DNA of 23,595 bases from a virus, in the IMG/VR virus record IMGVR_UViG_3300005613_000420, positions 1 through 23,595 of that record; one strand, written 5' to 3'. Shown here in pieces: positions 5,721-14,866 of this stretch. Numbering within the stretch: position 1 is the first letter of the stretch; every line of letters begins with the position of its first letter. The position numbers and the translations under genes were made by a program. Below the pieces are notes generated by a model. The model did not search any database, had not been told where the DNA came from, and was given only the letters and a program-made list of their open reading frames with translations.

Positions 5721-5745
5721 GCTTATTTAGAATCGTTCTAAATTA
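5721..5745. promoter_or_regulatory. Operator-like palindrome, copy 1 of a 25-bp exact repeat
   Basis: Arms ATTTAGAA (5725-5732) and TTCTAAAT (5736-5743) flank a TCG spacer. The whole 25 bases recur without change at 8443-8467. A -7-like TATTTTTG follows at 5750-5757, which would place the palindrome over the -33 position of that promoter, the usual place for a repressor site. Confidence 0.7.
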
Positions 5746-6654: not shown

Positions 6655-6840
6655 ATGAAAGCAACGGTAAAACGGCATAGACCCACAGGCGCAATGGTAT
6701 GGTTTCCAAATGATGGAATGAGTGGCATAATCGTACAGGCTGCTCACCCGTGGAAACTTGGAATGGTCTCATCGCATTGGGATTATTCAGACCTAGAACA
6801 AACAGAATTTGAAATCGAAATCAAACTAAAGAAGAAATGA
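6655..6840 (+). CDS. Small hypothetical protein coupled to the ERF gene
   Basis: 61 residues, beginning MKATVKRHRPTGAMVWFP, with beta-rich content, several Trp residues and a basic C-terminal tail (IEIKLKKK). Its TGA overlaps the ATG of the ERF gene at 6837 (ATGA), which implies translational coupling. No family recognised; a small barrel or SH3-like fold would fit its pattern. Confidence 0.6.
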   Translation: MKATVKRHRPTGAMVWFPNDGMSGIIVQAAHPWKLGMVSSHWDYSDLEQTEFEIEIKLKKK

Positions 6841-9490: not shown

Positions 9491-9895
9491 ATGGAATACA
9501 AAGATTTTTTAAAGACAAAGAAAAAGGGATTTGTGTCTAGTGGATTTGAACCGACAACACTGAATCCAAATCTGTTTGACTTTCAGGAATACATAGTTAA
9601 AATAGCACTTAGAAAGGGTCGTTTTGCCATATTTGCCGATTGCGGTCTTGGCAAAACATTAATGCAGCTTGCATGGTCTGAGTGCGTATTTAACCATACT
9701 GGAGAAAAGGTTTTGATACTTGCTCCTTTAGCCGTTGTCGAGCAGACAAAAAAGGAGGCTATATCATTTGGAATAAATACAGATTCATTTGACATTACAA
9801 ACTTTGACCAACTAAAGAACACCGATACATCTATCTATTCAGGTGTTGTCCTTGATGAAAGTTCTATTCTAAAAGGTCGGGATGGTAAGTTATAA
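9491..9895 (+). CDS. SF2/SNF2-like helicase, N-terminal fragment ended by an in-frame TAA
   Basis: 134 residues with helicase motif I FADCGLGKT (Walker A, Lys55), motif Ia VLILAPLAVVEQTKKEA (74-90) and motif II VVLDESS (119-125). The frame stops at TAA 9893-9895, only a few residues after motif II. The next reading frame is in register and begins with an ATG four bases after the stop, carrying motif III onward. Alone this fragment has the ATP site but lacks the second RecA lobe. It could pair with the downstream polypeptide made by reinitiation, be joined to it by read-through, or be the result of a nonsense change or sequencing error. Confidence 0.75.
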   Translation: MEYKDFLKTKKKGFVSSGFEPTTLNPNLFDFQEYIVKIALRKGRFAIFADCGLGKTLMQLAWSECVFNHTGEKVLILAPLAVVEQTKKEAISFGINTDSFDITNFDQLKNTDTSIYSGVVLDESSILKGRDGKL

Positions 9896-9898
9896 TCT

Positions 9899-11665
9899 AT
9901 GATAATTGATTTATTCAAGAACACACCATATAAGCTAGCATGTACGGCCACGCCTAGCCCAAACGACCACATGGAACTGGGCCAACATTCAGAGTTCTTG
10001 GGCGCAATGTCATATCTTGAAATGCTTGCAATGTATTTCGTGCATGATGGAGGCGAAACATCTAAATGGAGACTACGCAAACACGCAACGGATGACTTTT
10101 GGAAATACGTCTGCACGTGGTCTATTTCCCTTGACAATCCCAAAACACTTGGATTTGATGGTTGCGGTTACGAATTGCCAGAAATAGAATACATTGAGCA
10201 TATTATACCAGTTGAGAACAATACTCAAACTTTATTCGGTGATGTTGCTGTTTCTGCAACTGACTTACACAAAGACCTTAATCGATCATTTGATTTGAGA
10301 GTTGACAAGACTTTAGAGTTGGTAAATTCAAACAATGAACAATGGATTGTATGGGGGCTGAAAAACTCAGAGACTGACGCATTAGGAAAATTGATTGAGA
10401 ACGCTGTTAATGTTCAAGGATCTGATTCTCCTCAGTATAAGGCAGATAATCTGAATGGTTTTTCTAACGAGTTATTCAGAGTTCTTGTTACTAAGACATC
10501 AATCGCTTCATTTGGAATGAACTACCAACAATGCCATAACATGGTTTTTATGTCTTACGATTTCAAGTTTGAAGCTTTCTATCAAGCCGTTAGAAGGTGT
10601 TATCGCTTTGGACAAAAGAACAAAGTAAAAGTTCATATTCTAGTTCCTGAGAGTCAGGTGAACGTTCGCAAAACAATACTTGAAAAAGAGGCTAAACACA
10701 AGCAAATGATTCGAGAAATGAGTATGTACTCAGCTAATTCAGACTACAAATTAAACAGGTCAAATGTTACTCTAAATAACAAAGAAATGAAAACAGAACA
10801 CTACCATGTTATCAATGGTGATTGCGTACAGGAAACACAAAAGTTAGATTCAAATGTTGCCGACTTAGTTGTATTTTCTCCACCGTTCGCTGAGTTATAC
10901 GTATATTCGGATAAGGAAGAGGACATGGGTAACGTAAAGAATTATCAAGAGTTTGAGAAACACTTTAAATATTTGATACCTGAGTTGAAACGTGTTTTGA
11001 AGTCAGGTCGTATTTGTGCCGTTCATTGTATGGATTTACCTATTCAAAAAGGAAAAGAAGGCTACATTGGACTACGAGACTTTAGCGGAATGTTGATTGA
11101 TTGGTTTACAGATCAAGGATTCATATACCACGCAAAGACAACAATATGGAAGAACCCAGTAACAGAAATGCAACGAACTAAGGCATTAGGATTGCTTCAT
11201 AAAACAATAAAAAAGGATAGCTCAATGAGTAGGGTCGGTATTCCTGACTATGTTCTATTCTTTAGAAATGAAGGAGATAACGAAGTCCCTATTGTTCATC
11301 AGGACAAAGACCATAATGCACCTAACTTCCTACCTGTTGACCTTTGGCAAAAGTATGCTTCTCCAGTTTGGATGGACGTTGACTACGGAAGAACACTTCA
11401 ATATCGCTCAGGTCGTGATGGTAACGATGAAAAGCATATTTGTCCATTGCAACTTGATACAATTGAAAGAATTATTCACCTTTACTCAAATGAAGGAGAA
11501 ACAGTTCTAAGTCCATTTGGCGGTATTGGCTCTGAAGGGTTTCAGGCATTGAAAATGAAACGAAAATCAATATCCATTGAGCTAAAAGAAAGCTACTTCA
11601 AATTGAACGAGGCTAATCACAGGGCGGCGGTTGAAGAAATGAATTCAGTATTAACACTATTTTAA
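9899..11665 (+). CDS. Helicase C-terminal part fused to a beta-class DNA methyltransferase
   Basis: 588 residues, in the same frame as 9491-9895. Residues 1-290 continue the helicase: motif III CTATPSPND (15-23), motif V-like TKTSIASFGMNYQ (198-210), and motif VI QAVRRCYRFGQ (229-239). From about 300 a DNA methyltransferase follows: catalytic motif IV VVFSPPF (324-330) before the AdoMet-binding motif I LSPFGGIGSEGF (537-548), then SIELKESYFKLNEA. Motif IV preceding motif I is the beta-class order; SPPF suggests N4-cytosine or N6-adenine methylation. Helicase-methyltransferase fusions occur in Bacteroidota phages and could protect phage DNA from host restriction. The separate translation start is unproven; with the TAA ignored the whole protein would be about 724 residues. 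Confidence 0.8.
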   Translation: MIIDLFKNTPYKLACTATPSPNDHMELGQHSEFLGAMSYLEMLAMYFVHDGGETSKWRLRKHATDDFWKYVCTWSISLDNPKTLGFDGCGYELPEIEYIEHIIPVENNTQTLFGDVAVSATDLHKDLNRSFDLRVDKTLELVNSNNEQWIVWGLKNSETDALGKLIENAVNVQGSDSPQYKADNLNGFSNELFRVLVTKTSIASFGMNYQQCHNMVFMSYDFKFEAFYQAVRRCYRFGQKNKVKVHILVPESQVNVRKTILEKEAKHKQMIREMSMYSANSDYKLNRSNVTLNNKEMKTEHYHVINGDCVQETQKLDSNVADLVVFSPPFAELYVYSDKEEDMGNVKNYQEFEKHFKYLIPELKRVLKSGRICAVHCMDLPIQKGKEGYIGLRDFSGMLIDWFTDQGFIYHAKTTIWKNPVTEMQRTKALGLLHKTIKKDSSMSRVGIPDYVLFFRNEGDNEVPIVHQDKDHNAPNFLPVDLWQKYASPVWMDVDYGRTLQYRSGRDGNDEKHICPLQLDTIERIIHLYSNEGETVLSPFGGIGSEGFQALKMKRKSISIELKESYFKLNEANHRAAVEEMNSVLTLF

Positions 11666-12032: not shown

Positions 12033-12052
12033 ACCAATCCAACCCAATCAAT

Positions 12053-12086
12053 TAAGCCCTGCCATATCGGTGGGGCTTTTTTGTTT
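12053..12086 (+). terminator. Rho-independent terminator ending the second early unit
   Basis: Stem AAGCCC (12054-12059) with GGGCTT (12073-12078), plus inner CC/GG pairs, loop around ATATC, then a run of six T. Placed right after the DUF3127 gene. Confidence 0.85.
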
Positions 12087-12300
12087 TAGGACGTAAACAA
12101 AGGGCGTTTCTTTTTTCCCTATACTCTCTCTCTCTTTAAAAGTTTACAGTTTTGGTTTTTTATTTTTTTTCAAAACCTCAAAAATCTACGTCCATACGCC
12201 CTAAATGTATTTAATAAATTAAAAATCAATAAGTTAACGCGGACGCATCGGGTTTTTATATGCGTCCTTTTTATTTTTTTACGCCCTTTTGTTTATTAAA
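12087..12300. other. AT-rich non-coding tract with repeated ACGYCC motifs, candidate origin
   Basis: The stretch 12033-12475 has no substantial gene. This part holds: TAAACAAAGGGCGT (12094-12107), inverted as ACGCCCTTTTGTTTA (12281-12295); further ACGTCC/ACGCCC/GGACGY words at 12089, 12188, 12196, 12241 and 12262; a TC run (12123-12136); long T runs; and a very AT-rich core (12200-12235). Repeated short motifs in both orientations next to primase-helicase and SSB-like genes are what a phage origin often looks like. This is inference; no direct proof. Confidence 0.4.
12241..12280 (+). terminator. Strong hairpin with T-tract
   Basis: GGACGCAT (12241-12248) pairs perfectly with ATGCGTCC (12260-12267), loop of 11 bases, followed by TTTTTATTTTTTT. 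It is the second terminator-like stem in 230 bases and lies just before the promoter of the primase-helicase, so it may insulate that promoter. It also carries the GGACGC word of the surrounding tract. Confidence 0.75.
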
Positions 12301-12319
12301 AATACTATTACTATATTTG
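12287..12319 (+). promoter_or_regulatory. Promoter of the primase-helicase operon
   Basis: TTTTG (12287-12291), 20-base spacer, TATATTTG (12312-12319): an exact Bacteroidota TAnnTTTG -7 with a good -33. Expected transcription start is about 12325, leaving a leader of about 150 bases before the ATG at 12476. It is the best promoter in the window. Confidence 0.75.
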
Positions 12320-12330
12320 TGTTCGCTTGA

Positions 12331-12387
12331 ATGACACCAAGCAAAAAAGAACGAATGAAACTGATTTTAATTACGCAAGGGAAGTAA
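12331..12387 (+). CDS. 18-codon leader ORF overlapping the structured leader
   Basis: ATG at 12331, a few bases after the expected transcription start, TAA at 12385-12387; encodes MTPSKKERMKLILITQGK. Its last codons cover the 5' arm of the outer stem of the RNA at 12374-12461, so a translating ribosome would open that stem. It may be a leader peptide or chance. Low confidence. Confidence 0.3.
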   Translation: MTPSKKERMKLILITQGK

Positions 12388-12461
12388 CAAGTAAAGCCGA
12401 CCGTTCTCTCAGTTCTGAGTTAATGGCTAACTTGTTTCGGACTGTCAATCCGACCCTTGCG
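12374..12461 (+). ncRNA. Structured leader RNA, three-way junction
   Basis: Four stems can be drawn by eye. P1: CGCAAGGG (12374-12381) with CCCTTGCG (12454-12461), perfect. P2: AACAAGT (12386-12392) with ACTTGTT (12430-12436), continued by AGCC (12395-12398) with GGCT (12425-12428). P3: CTCA (12408-12411) with TGAG (12416-12419). P4: TCGGA (12437-12441) with TCCGA (12449-12453), 7-base loop. P4 abuts both P1 and P2. The element ends 14 bases before the ATG of the primase-helicase. It could be a cis-regulatory leader, an sRNA, or an origin-linked RNA. It does not fit a tRNA. Confidence 0.55.
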
Positions 12462-12475
12462 ATTTAAATTAAATA

Positions 12476-14866
12476 ATGATACATACCGTTACCATTTTTA
12501 AAAACATAACCGCCACCTCGGCAGGATTTAATAGATCAGTTGATTTCGTGTTACAACGTATCAAGCAGGGGAAATCAAAAGAGTTACTTAGTAGAATAAG
12601 GTTAGAACATGACAAAGAGGTTCGTAATAAGCTGAAGATGGGTTTGCCGTCAATTTGCTTCAGTGGTACTTTTTCCAATAGGTCAGCCGCAGGGCTTGTA
12701 AAACATAGCGGTTTGCTTTGTCTAGATTTTGATGGATTTGAAAATGACTCAGTTGCTACCGACTGGCGCGATACACTAACAGCTTGGGAATACACATACG
12801 CATTATTTACGTCTCCAAGTGGTAACGGTTTAAAGGTTCTTGTTCGTATTCCAGAAACGGATGTAAAAGGTCATAAAGAATACTTTGAAGCAATTGAGAA
12901 ATATTTTGAAGATTGTCAATACTTTGATAGGTCAACAAGCGATGTATCAAGAGTATGTTATGAGAGTTACGACCCTAACATTTATACAAACGTTGATTCT
13001 GATATTTGGCACGAAAAGAATGTAAAGGAACTACACGACATTGGTGTTAGTCATGCTTTAATACCTGTTAAATCCGATTCAATTATAATTTCAACCATCC
13101 AAAAATGGTGGGAAAGCAAGAAAAAAGGAAATGGGAAAGGTAGAAACGCTGATTTGTTTGTTTTCGCTTCCGCTTTAAATAGGTTTGGAGTTAGTAAAAA
13201 TGCAAGCGAACAACACCTGTCGCAATTTGCAGTTAAGGACTTTCCAGTTGATGAAATACTAAAAGTTGTTAAATCTGCTTATAAGAACATATCAGAACAC
13301 GGAACGCAGTTCTTAGAAGACCATAGCGCACATCAACAGATTGAAAAAAATATCAGGGCAGGTAAGACCGTTAGGGCAATCGCAAAAGAGTTAGATATTG
13401 ATGAAGTAGTTGCCGAGGATGTTAGCGGACAAATTAGAGAAACTCTAGCTATTACGGACTTTTGGACTTATAACGACAAAGGGAAAGTTCAACTTAGCCC
13501 ACACAAATACAAGTTTTTTTTAGAGCAAAATCAATTTTGTAAATTTTTTCCAGAGGGTTCAAGCAGTTACTTATTCGTTCGAATTAGCTCCAACCTTTTA
13601 GAAGATACAGCAGCGGCATACATCAAAGATTTTGTTCTAAACTATCTATTGCAACGTGGCGACATTGGTTATTCACCATATGACTTTATGGCAAATCAAA
13701 CAAGGTTGTTTAAAGATGATTACTTATCAATGTTGGACACAGCAGAGGTCAATCTGAAAAAAGACACGGAAGAAACCTGTCATTTGTATTTTTCAAATTG
13801 CTGTGTAGCTATTAGCAAGGACAAAGTAGAATCAATTGATTACCTTGATTTGGACGGTTTTGTTTGGAAGAAACACGTAATTGATAGGGAGTTTAAAACC
13901 GTAGTTAAAGGAGGAGGTATGTTTGAAAAGTTTCTTCGATTGGTTGCGTCAAACAATGAGAATAGATTCAACTCTTTAAGATCTGTTCTAGGTTACTTGA
14001 TGCATGGTTACAAAACAGCCGCAAACAACAAAGCAATTATTTTGAACGATGAGTTGATTAGCGACAACCCAAATGGAGGTAGCGGAAAGGGTATGTTCTG
14101 CAATGCCGTTAGCCAAATGAAAAGGGTTGCTATTCTTGATGGTAAGCAATTCAGTTTTGATAAATCTTTTCCTTACCAAACAGTCGGAGCAGATACACAA
14201 GTTTTAGTTTTTGATGACGTTAAAAAGAACTTTGCTTTTGAGCAGTTGTTCAGCTTAATCACTGAGGGAATTACCTTAGAGAAAAAAAATAAAGATGCTA
14301 TTTACGTTCCAGTACAACGTTCCCCAAAAGTGGTAATAACGACCAACTATACAATAGGCGGTGTTGGAGGTTCTTTTGAGCGGAGAAAGTTCGAGGTTGA
14401 ATTTAGTAGCCATTTCGGAGCTCATAACACACCGTTTGATGAGTTTGGATGTATGCTATTTGACGAATGGAACGAAAAAGAATGGTCTATGTTTGATTCA
14501 TTTATGATTGGTTGTGTTCAGTATTATTTAAACAACGGATTAGTCGAACATGAATCTGTTAATCTGGAGCTAAGAAAACTGATAAAAGAAACTTGTTCAG
14601 ATTTTGTTGAATGGGCTAATGATGGAAACCTACCAACTAGAAAGAGACTTGATAAAACAGCGATATTTAAAGCCTTTACCGAAGAATACAACGATTACTC
14701 TAAGTGGCTTACTCAAAGGAAGTTTACTAAGTGGGTTGAGAATTTTGGAAAACATCATGGCAATAATGTAACGCAAGGCAAATCAAACGGTCTAAGGTGG
14801 ATTCAAATAGGCGATGATTTAGAAAATAAAGGTGTTGATTTAGATGATGAAGAATATGCGTTCTGA
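12476..14866 (+). CDS. Primase-helicase: VirE-N/BT4734-type primase domain plus SF3-like helicase
   Basis: 796 residues. The N-terminal 180 residues match the BT4734/VirE-N family, which resembles archaeo-eukaryotic primases: LCLDFDGF (81-88, acidic DxD), SPSGNGLKVLV (113-123) and a DVSRVCYESYDP segment. A middle region contains a PriCT-like stretch (KKKGNGKGRNADLFVFAS). The C-terminal half is a D5/SF3-like helicase: Walker A GGSGKG (534-539), Walker B VLVFDDV (576-582), sensor VVITTNYTIGG and an Arg finger region SFERRKFEVEF. It would make primers and unwind DNA at the phage origin. It sits behind its own promoter and structured leader, next to the candidate origin. The following helicase gene overlaps it by 23 bases. 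Confidence 0.85.
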   Translation: MIHTVTIFKNITATSAGFNRSVDFVLQRIKQGKSKELLSRIRLEHDKEVRNKLKMGLPSICFSGTFSNRSAAGLVKHSGLLCLDFDGFENDSVATDWRDTLTAWEYTYALFTSPSGNGLKVLVRIPETDVKGHKEYFEAIEKYFEDCQYFDRSTSDVSRVCYESYDPNIYTNVDSDIWHEKNVKELHDIGVSHALIPVKSDSIIISTIQKWWESKKKGNGKGRNADLFVFASALNRFGVSKNASEQHLSQFAVKDFPVDEILKVVKSAYKNISEHGTQFLEDHSAHQQIEKNIRAGKTVRAIAKELDIDEVVAEDVSGQIRETLAITDFWTYNDKGKVQLSPHKYKFFLEQNQFCKFFPEGSSSYLFVRISSNLLEDTAAAYIKDFVLNYLLQRGDIGYSPYDFMANQTRLFKDDYLSMLDTAEVNLKKDTEETCHLYFSNCCVAISKDKVESIDYLDLDGFVWKKHVIDREFKTVVKGGGMFEKFLRLVASNNENRFNSLRSVLGYLMHGYKTAANNKAIILNDELISDNPNGGSGKGMFCNAVSQMKRVAILDGKQFSFDKSFPYQTVGADTQVLVFDDVKKNFAFEQLFSLITEGITLEKKNKDAIYVPVQRSPKVVITTNYTIGGVGGSFERRKFEVEFSSHFGAHNTPFDEFGCMLFDEWNEKEWSMFDSFMIGCVQYYLNNGLVEHESVNLELRKLIKETCSDFVEWANDGNLPTRKRLDKTAIFKAFTEEYNDYSKWLTQRKFTKWVENFGKHHGNNVTQGKSNGLRWIQIGDDLENKGVDLDDEEYAF

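Follow-up and report, generated by a model that had tools for sequence, protein, structure and literature searches.

Kissing-loop leaders of Bacteroidetes-phage genes as candidate promoter-proximal attenuators

How Bacteroidetes phages time the expression of their genes is, to our knowledge, largely unknown; the genes considered here start from host-type promoters. An IMG/VR virus record of 23,595 nucleotides (the window, along which positions are counted below) raises this question in concrete form, namely what a compactly folded RNA does between a promoter and the start codon of a primase-helicase gene. The gene order of the window, phosphatase, ERF, DUF3127, primase, helicase, VRR-NUC and terminase, resembles that of Nonlabens phage P12024S. 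The folded leader is real and probably one of a previously unlisted Bacteroidetes-phage class, and it probably controls whether the gene behind it is read.

The folded leader of the primase-helicase gene

The RNA of positions 12374-12461 folds with a minimum free energy (MFE) of -31.2 kcal/mol against a mean of -18.6 for dinucleotide shuffles (z -4.29), and none of 200 shuffles was as good, which is the outcome of an energy check proposed in an earlier sequence-only reading of this DNA. The three-way junction that this reading described, made up of an 8-bp closing stem (stem B), a long second arm and a hairpin of 5 bp with a 7-nt loop (HP2), is present in all its parts in the MFE fold; the hairpin adjoins the second arm and the 3' strand of stem B without a gap, and the distance of 14 nt from the end of stem B to the ATG was also given correctly. 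The extent of the element was underestimated, in that the junction is only the 3' half of a larger structure that starts with a 5'-terminal hairpin (HP1) and in which two further pairings enter the junction. In the same way the hairpin once likened to a T-arm is there, and what had been overlooked is that its loop is predicted to kiss that of HP1. The features of the leader are collected in Table 1.

Table 1. Coordinates of the leader features and of the gene behind them
Feature	Position	Strand	Sequence	Basis or remark
Bacteroidetes-type promoter	12288..12319	+	TTTG (12288-12291), 20-nt spacer, TATATTTG (12312-12319)	TAnnTT[TC]G box similarly placed before nearly all members
HP1, 5'-terminal hairpin	12325..12342	+	GCUUG-AAUGACAC-CAAGC	z -4.28; homologous hairpins in L001, L002, L003, L005, L330
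PK1 5' strand, in HP1 loop	12332..12336	+	UGACA	pairs with 12443-12447
A-rich linker	12343..12373	+		carries PK2 strand AGAACG
Stem B 5' strand	12374..12381	+	CGCAAGGG	fold; 8-bp perfect closing stem
Second arm	12386..12436	+	AACAAGU/ACUUGUU, AGCC/GGCU, CUCA/UGAG	fold, z -3.1; homologous arm in L330
HP2	12437..12453	+	UCGGA-CUGUCAA-UCCGA	fold; 'T-arm' of the sequence-only reading
PK1 3' strand, in HP2 loop	12443..12447	+	UGUCA	pairs with 12332-12336
Stem B 3' strand	12454..12461	+	CCCUUGCG	fold; partner of CGCAAGGG
14-nt AU spacer to start codon	12462..12475	+	AUUUAAAUUAAAUA	site of U8 tract in most members
Primase-helicase gene	12476..14866	+		Pfam BT4734-like_N + DUF5906

The loops of HP1 and HP2 are thus modelled as a kissing pseudoknot (PK1), a pairing equalled by 3 of 5000 loop shuffles; it amounts to 5 bp with flanking mismatches, against the 6 bp or more by which the class is defined, and its nearest analogue likewise has 5 bp. 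A second pairing (PK2) can form between AGAACG of the linker (12348-12353) and CGUUCU of the second arm (12402-12407), and taken alone it is weak (144 of 5000 shuffles). The promoter lies about 55 nt 5' of stem B, and HP1 begins a few nucleotides downstream of its TATATTTG box. A promoter had been recognised here before and is indeed present; the pattern alone is not rare in the window, since 30% of shuffles have as many, yet it is kept in relatives.

The leader does not correspond to a known RNA family. Consistent with the earlier statement that it was no recognised riboswitch, a search of Rfam 15 gave no family at the gathering threshold, RAGATH-27 scoring 16.6 bits against a threshold of 76.1, and BLASTN of the leader against phages returned short chance matches only. 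The likeness to an acceptor-T arm had been judged superficial and proves so: a tRNA, tmRNA or tRNA-like identity is rejected because ARAGORN reports 0 genes, the tRNA covariance model gives no match and the loop CUGUCAA is no T-loop (UUCRANY). These results speak neither for nor against a role in ligand sensing.

A class of leaders with kissing loops

In leaders of related primases in viral contigs an order A-B-A'-B' recurs directly behind the promoter box. A sits in the loop of HP1 and A' in the loop of the apical hairpin HP2 inside the longer stem B, so that the two loops kiss. The common layout is therefore a TAnnTTTG box, HP1, an A-rich linker, a long stem B, HP2, the loop of which pairs with that of HP1, and a start codon about 17 nt further on, a layout shared by many Bacteroidetes-phage leaders with almost wholly different sequences; e.g. 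CAGUU-GGCUCAG-AACUG kisses GCA-CUGAGCC-UGC in locus L003, CCCAAU-GUGCGA-AUUGGG kisses GCA-UCGCAC-UGC in L002, and AGUAUU-GGCCAG-AAUACU kisses CAUAA-CUGGCC-UUAUG in L014. The window has the same succession, with stem B enclosing HP2 and the start codon soon after.

A kissing-loop scan yielded 29 sense-strand matches at or below -34 kcal/mol in 31 nonredundant loci, against 0 and 0 in two dinucleotide-shuffle sets; the window leader falls short of the strict detector threshold. When a TAnnTT[TC]G box was required within 45 nt, such promoter-linked elements were found at 54 per Mb with the threshold at -36 and at 36 per Mb with it at -34 in two independent sets of phage primase flanks, at 4 per Mb in viral contigs chosen otherwise, and neither in shuffles nor in 1.0 Mb of host chromosome (both strands counted), the latter being Flavobacterium, Flavobacteriaceae and Pedobacter sequence selected for perfect promoters. 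The detector was built on the loci where the pattern was first seen; independent testing rests on the second of the primase sets, on the phages in culture and on the host controls. The element is missing from six bacterial-genome relatives of the primase, and no promoter-linked element was detected in P12024S, phi46:1 or MW202828, of which the first two have related gene orders. A simple DNA pattern, TGATAAAGN{7,9}CTTTTGA, was discarded as a detector in viral contigs, being too loose, with true elements at only 3 of 80 sites.

Sixty elements, chosen only by promoter, K and B, form 49 sequence clusters and include a few evident chance matches. In this set K starts mostly 15-23 nt past the start of the promoter box, the flanks of HP1 pair in 39 elements and those of HP2 in 28 (22% and 21%, respectively, in cross-element controls), and 50 distinct kissing-loop sequences occur. 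Linker length and stem B, compared as a strict geometric coupling rule, showed no significant correlation.

Comparison of homologous leaders, the test that the sequence-only reading had suggested, strongly supports a conserved structure. In a 12-sequence MAFFT alignment of one subfamily the proposed structure has 94.7% of cells paired; both sides have changed in 16 of 22 pairs, and all four helices contribute. The covariation score is 0.671, against 0.179 for shuffles and at most 0.12 for slid structures. Among cultured Flavobacterium phages the kissing helix is GUGAGACG/CGUCUCAC in hemulen6-1 and GUGGAACG/CGUUCCAC in snusmum6-1 and mumin6-1, a double compensatory change. The kissing-loop leaders are well supported as a structural class.

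The window leader is a divergent three-way-junction member of this class. Its kissing is weak, at 5 bp, and it has no clear U tract; its junction is a variant of a widespread arrangement that more often occurs without the middle arm. Its closest counterpart is the leader of L330, a locus with a primase sharing 68% identity with that of L001. This leader folds independently into a three-way junction in which a hairpin lies directly next to the closing stem (z -4.8). Its loops make a 5-bp contact, GCCAA/UUGGC, and its linker and arm form an 8-bp PK2, UGACCAGG/CCUGGUCG, reached by none of 2000 shuffles; the match with the window is one of topology, every helix differing in sequence and the two leaders not being alignable. 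The start codon is 52-79 nt away in L001, L002 and L005.

Contigs carry one to four elements, and the genes behind them encode primase-helicases, NUMOD4/HNH, HNH and GIY-YIG endonucleases, N6/N4 and C5 methylases, and small unknown proteins, so an element specific to the primase gene was rejected. Cultured Baltic Flavobacterium phages have two or three each, before endonuclease/DUF3127, helicase/methylase and primase operons, at 13744 and 14782 in MN812208 (L430), at 5729, 9668 and 10706 in MN812234 (L431) and at 6685 and 7723 in MN812220 (L432). In L099, L103, L144 and L177 the loops of one genome share the approximate pattern GUNGUNG with differences at positions 3 and 6, as though they were kept apart from each other. 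In 23 of 44 elements both sides of the internal loop between stem B and HP2 carry GA (e.g. UGAU/UGAU in L099, GGAU/UGAA in L003), which suggests tandem sheared G.A pairs and a specific bend or protein site.

The U tract and the role of the leader

A GC-rich stem followed by eight U residues is an intrinsic terminator, and a promoterless gene right behind one relies on read-through, i.e. is under an attenuator. The profile of the class has both parts, the GC-rich stem and a U tract directly following it. The eight positions after stem B hold 5.5 U on average in the 60 elements and 2.6 U at a comparable distance before 236 control genes of the same contigs, and the tract is sharp, ending at position 9-10. 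The distance from stem B to the ATG has a median of 17 nt and is 9-26 nt in 34 of 39 elements, and none of these 39 has a second TAnnTTTG box in the gap, so that the gene should be expressed only by read-through. It is the sharp U8 of most members that leads to the reading of the class as promoter-proximal kissing-loop attenuators. The window itself differs from the profile, since AUUUAAAU after its stem B has 4 U in 8, below the 5 in 8 used to define the tract; L330 has 5 and L001 has 4, and the tract, frequent in the class, is not universal in this subgroup.

In the proposed mechanism the host RNA polymerase would initiate at the strong TAnnTTTG promoter and HP1 would form within a few nucleotides of the RNA 5' end. 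Once the A-rich linker had been transcribed, stem B would be begun with its 5' strand and HP2 would follow; the HP2 loop would pair with the HP1 loop, and the 3' strand of stem B would then close the structure just 5' of the start codon. In most members the GC-rich base of stem B and the 8-nt U tract would constitute a promoter-proximal intrinsic terminator with a pseudoknotted apex. The complementarity of HP1 and linker to stem B is no higher within an element than between elements (p = 0.16 and 0.44), i.e. no antiterminator pairing was found by this comparison, so any switch would be expected to lie in the kissing contact or in a factor, from phage or host, recognising it; either might set the level of read-through and hence the timing of replication and DNA-modification genes. 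For the three-way-junction subtype of the window the U tract appears to have decayed, and because it is poor, translational control by the same fold, acting on initiation, seems likelier there, or else a weak terminator. That the window leader belongs to the kissing-loop class, and that in most of its members the class acts by promoter-proximal attenuation with read-through set by kissing or by a factor recognising it, is favoured with moderate confidence; structure, covariation, position, U tract and gene context are observed, and termination, the direction of control and the controlling factor are what we infer. A bolder and more tentative version is of a hitherto undescribed RNA switch of Bacteroidetes phages, independent of sequence, in which a 5' hairpin kisses the apical loop of a promoter-proximal terminator, is recognised by shape, and with one to four private loop codes per genome times replication, endonuclease and methylase genes.

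Among other roles, a translational operator like the T4 gene 32 leader pseudoknot, autoregulatory or under control of a factor, would have a phage protein bind the folded leader and govern ribosome access to the start codon. The 9-26 nt between stem B and the ATG in 34 of 39 elements would suit it, as would the window and L330, with about 10-14 nt between stem B and the ATG and no clean U tract, and the recurrent GA-rich internal loops described above. It is nevertheless unlikely, leaving unexplained the sharp 8-nt U tract of most members, and the unrelated genes downstream (primase, HNH, GIY-YIG, methylases) speak against simple autoregulation by each product. A 5'-terminal stabiliser of the mRNA, in which hairpin and kissing hide the 5' end from 5'-dependent decay, would agree with the start of HP1 a few nucleotides past the promoter box and with a fold kept while loop sequences vary freely; a simple hairpin would however suffice for this, and the U tract and the close start codon would have no explanation, which makes such a role improbable. 

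The sequence-only reading had also raised a small RNA or replication RNA. As a trans-acting species freed by termination, a primer or an immunity RNA like that of P4 CI with loops acting in trans, this would be a compact product of about 90 nt, the high loop diversity would resemble incompatibility or immunity specificities, and in primase loci the repeats by the promoter suggest that an origin is close. A free-standing RNA of this kind has become less likely because the same architecture precedes several unrelated genes, mostly at 9-26 nt from the start codon; these genes are too close behind for another promoter, some have no part in replication, and the loops are self-complementary in cis, so that we give the idea little credence. 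It is very improbable that the three-way junction of the window arose by chance and has nothing to do with the class, for although the window falls short of the strict detector threshold, kisses by 5 bp only, has a weak PK2 and is extremely divergent in sequence, its promoter, order, spacing and gene are as in L001-L005, L330 has the same junction and both pseudoknots in other sequences, and its z is -4.3.

The recurrence of a kissing-loop leader with a terminator signature before primase, endonuclease and methylase genes makes the timing question directly testable, also in the cultured Flavobacterium phages (hemulen, mumin, snusmum), which are a ready experimental system.

Comparable systems and neighbouring sequences

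Several known leaders share single features with the class. The phage T4 gene 32 leader, in front of a DNA-replication gene, likewise forms a pseudoknot, in its case a single sequence-conserved one of H type that serves translational autoregulation; the class differs in its loop-loop kissing, its many genes and its U tract. The put RNA of HK022 consists of two simple, sequence-conserved hairpins that suppress downstream terminators, also a structured RNA at the 5' end of a phage transcript acting after initiation, whereas the structure of the class itself looks like a terminator. In phage P4 the PLE leader/CI RNA immunity uses a processed trans-acting RNA; there, too, RNA pairs with RNA and transcription ends prematurely ahead of a primase-helicase operon, but in the class the pairing is within one leader. 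The pT181 and pIP501 attenuators, as known generally and from PMC4878617, resemble the class in coupling hairpin-loop kissing to an intrinsic terminator in the leader of a replication gene, immediately ahead of that gene; their kissing partner is an antisense RNA in trans with a competing antiterminator, in contrast to the cis partner of the class, for which no competing pairing was detected.

The open literature searched held no description of a kissing-loop leader class. A candidate RNA of a human-microbiome study, HMP_4078, is a palindrome without a predicted terminator near a D5-type primase domain of a Bacteroidetes phage (PMC8040213); it is alike in context and is set apart by its description alone. 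With that proviso the class, absent from Rfam 15 and from the literature searched, is taken as undescribed. Free co-variation of its loops can hide it from sequence-profile methods such as Rfam, which makes it a concrete case of an RNA class defined by structure and missed by homology search.

Further features of these loci were observed. Two ORFs of the window in the same frame (+), 9491-9895 with the N-terminal part of a helicase and 9899-11665 with Helicase_C and N6_N4 methylase domains, have a TAA between them and look like one helicase-methylase gene broken by a stop codon. Short repeats lie upstream of the primase promoter at 12033-12290, with TACGCCCT twice and in an inverted copy, and relatives have GGGGCAGATTGA three times, TGTGTACTTT three times and ATGTGCCG repeats in corresponding places (L038 2825-2860, L010 575-731 and the upstream region of L337); these are possible initiator-binding iterons and the region hence a candidate replication origin. 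In mumin6-1 an array of GGTAACC-type repeats follows the VirE-like helicase gene (L432, about 12548, minus strand) and is perhaps an origin or operator.
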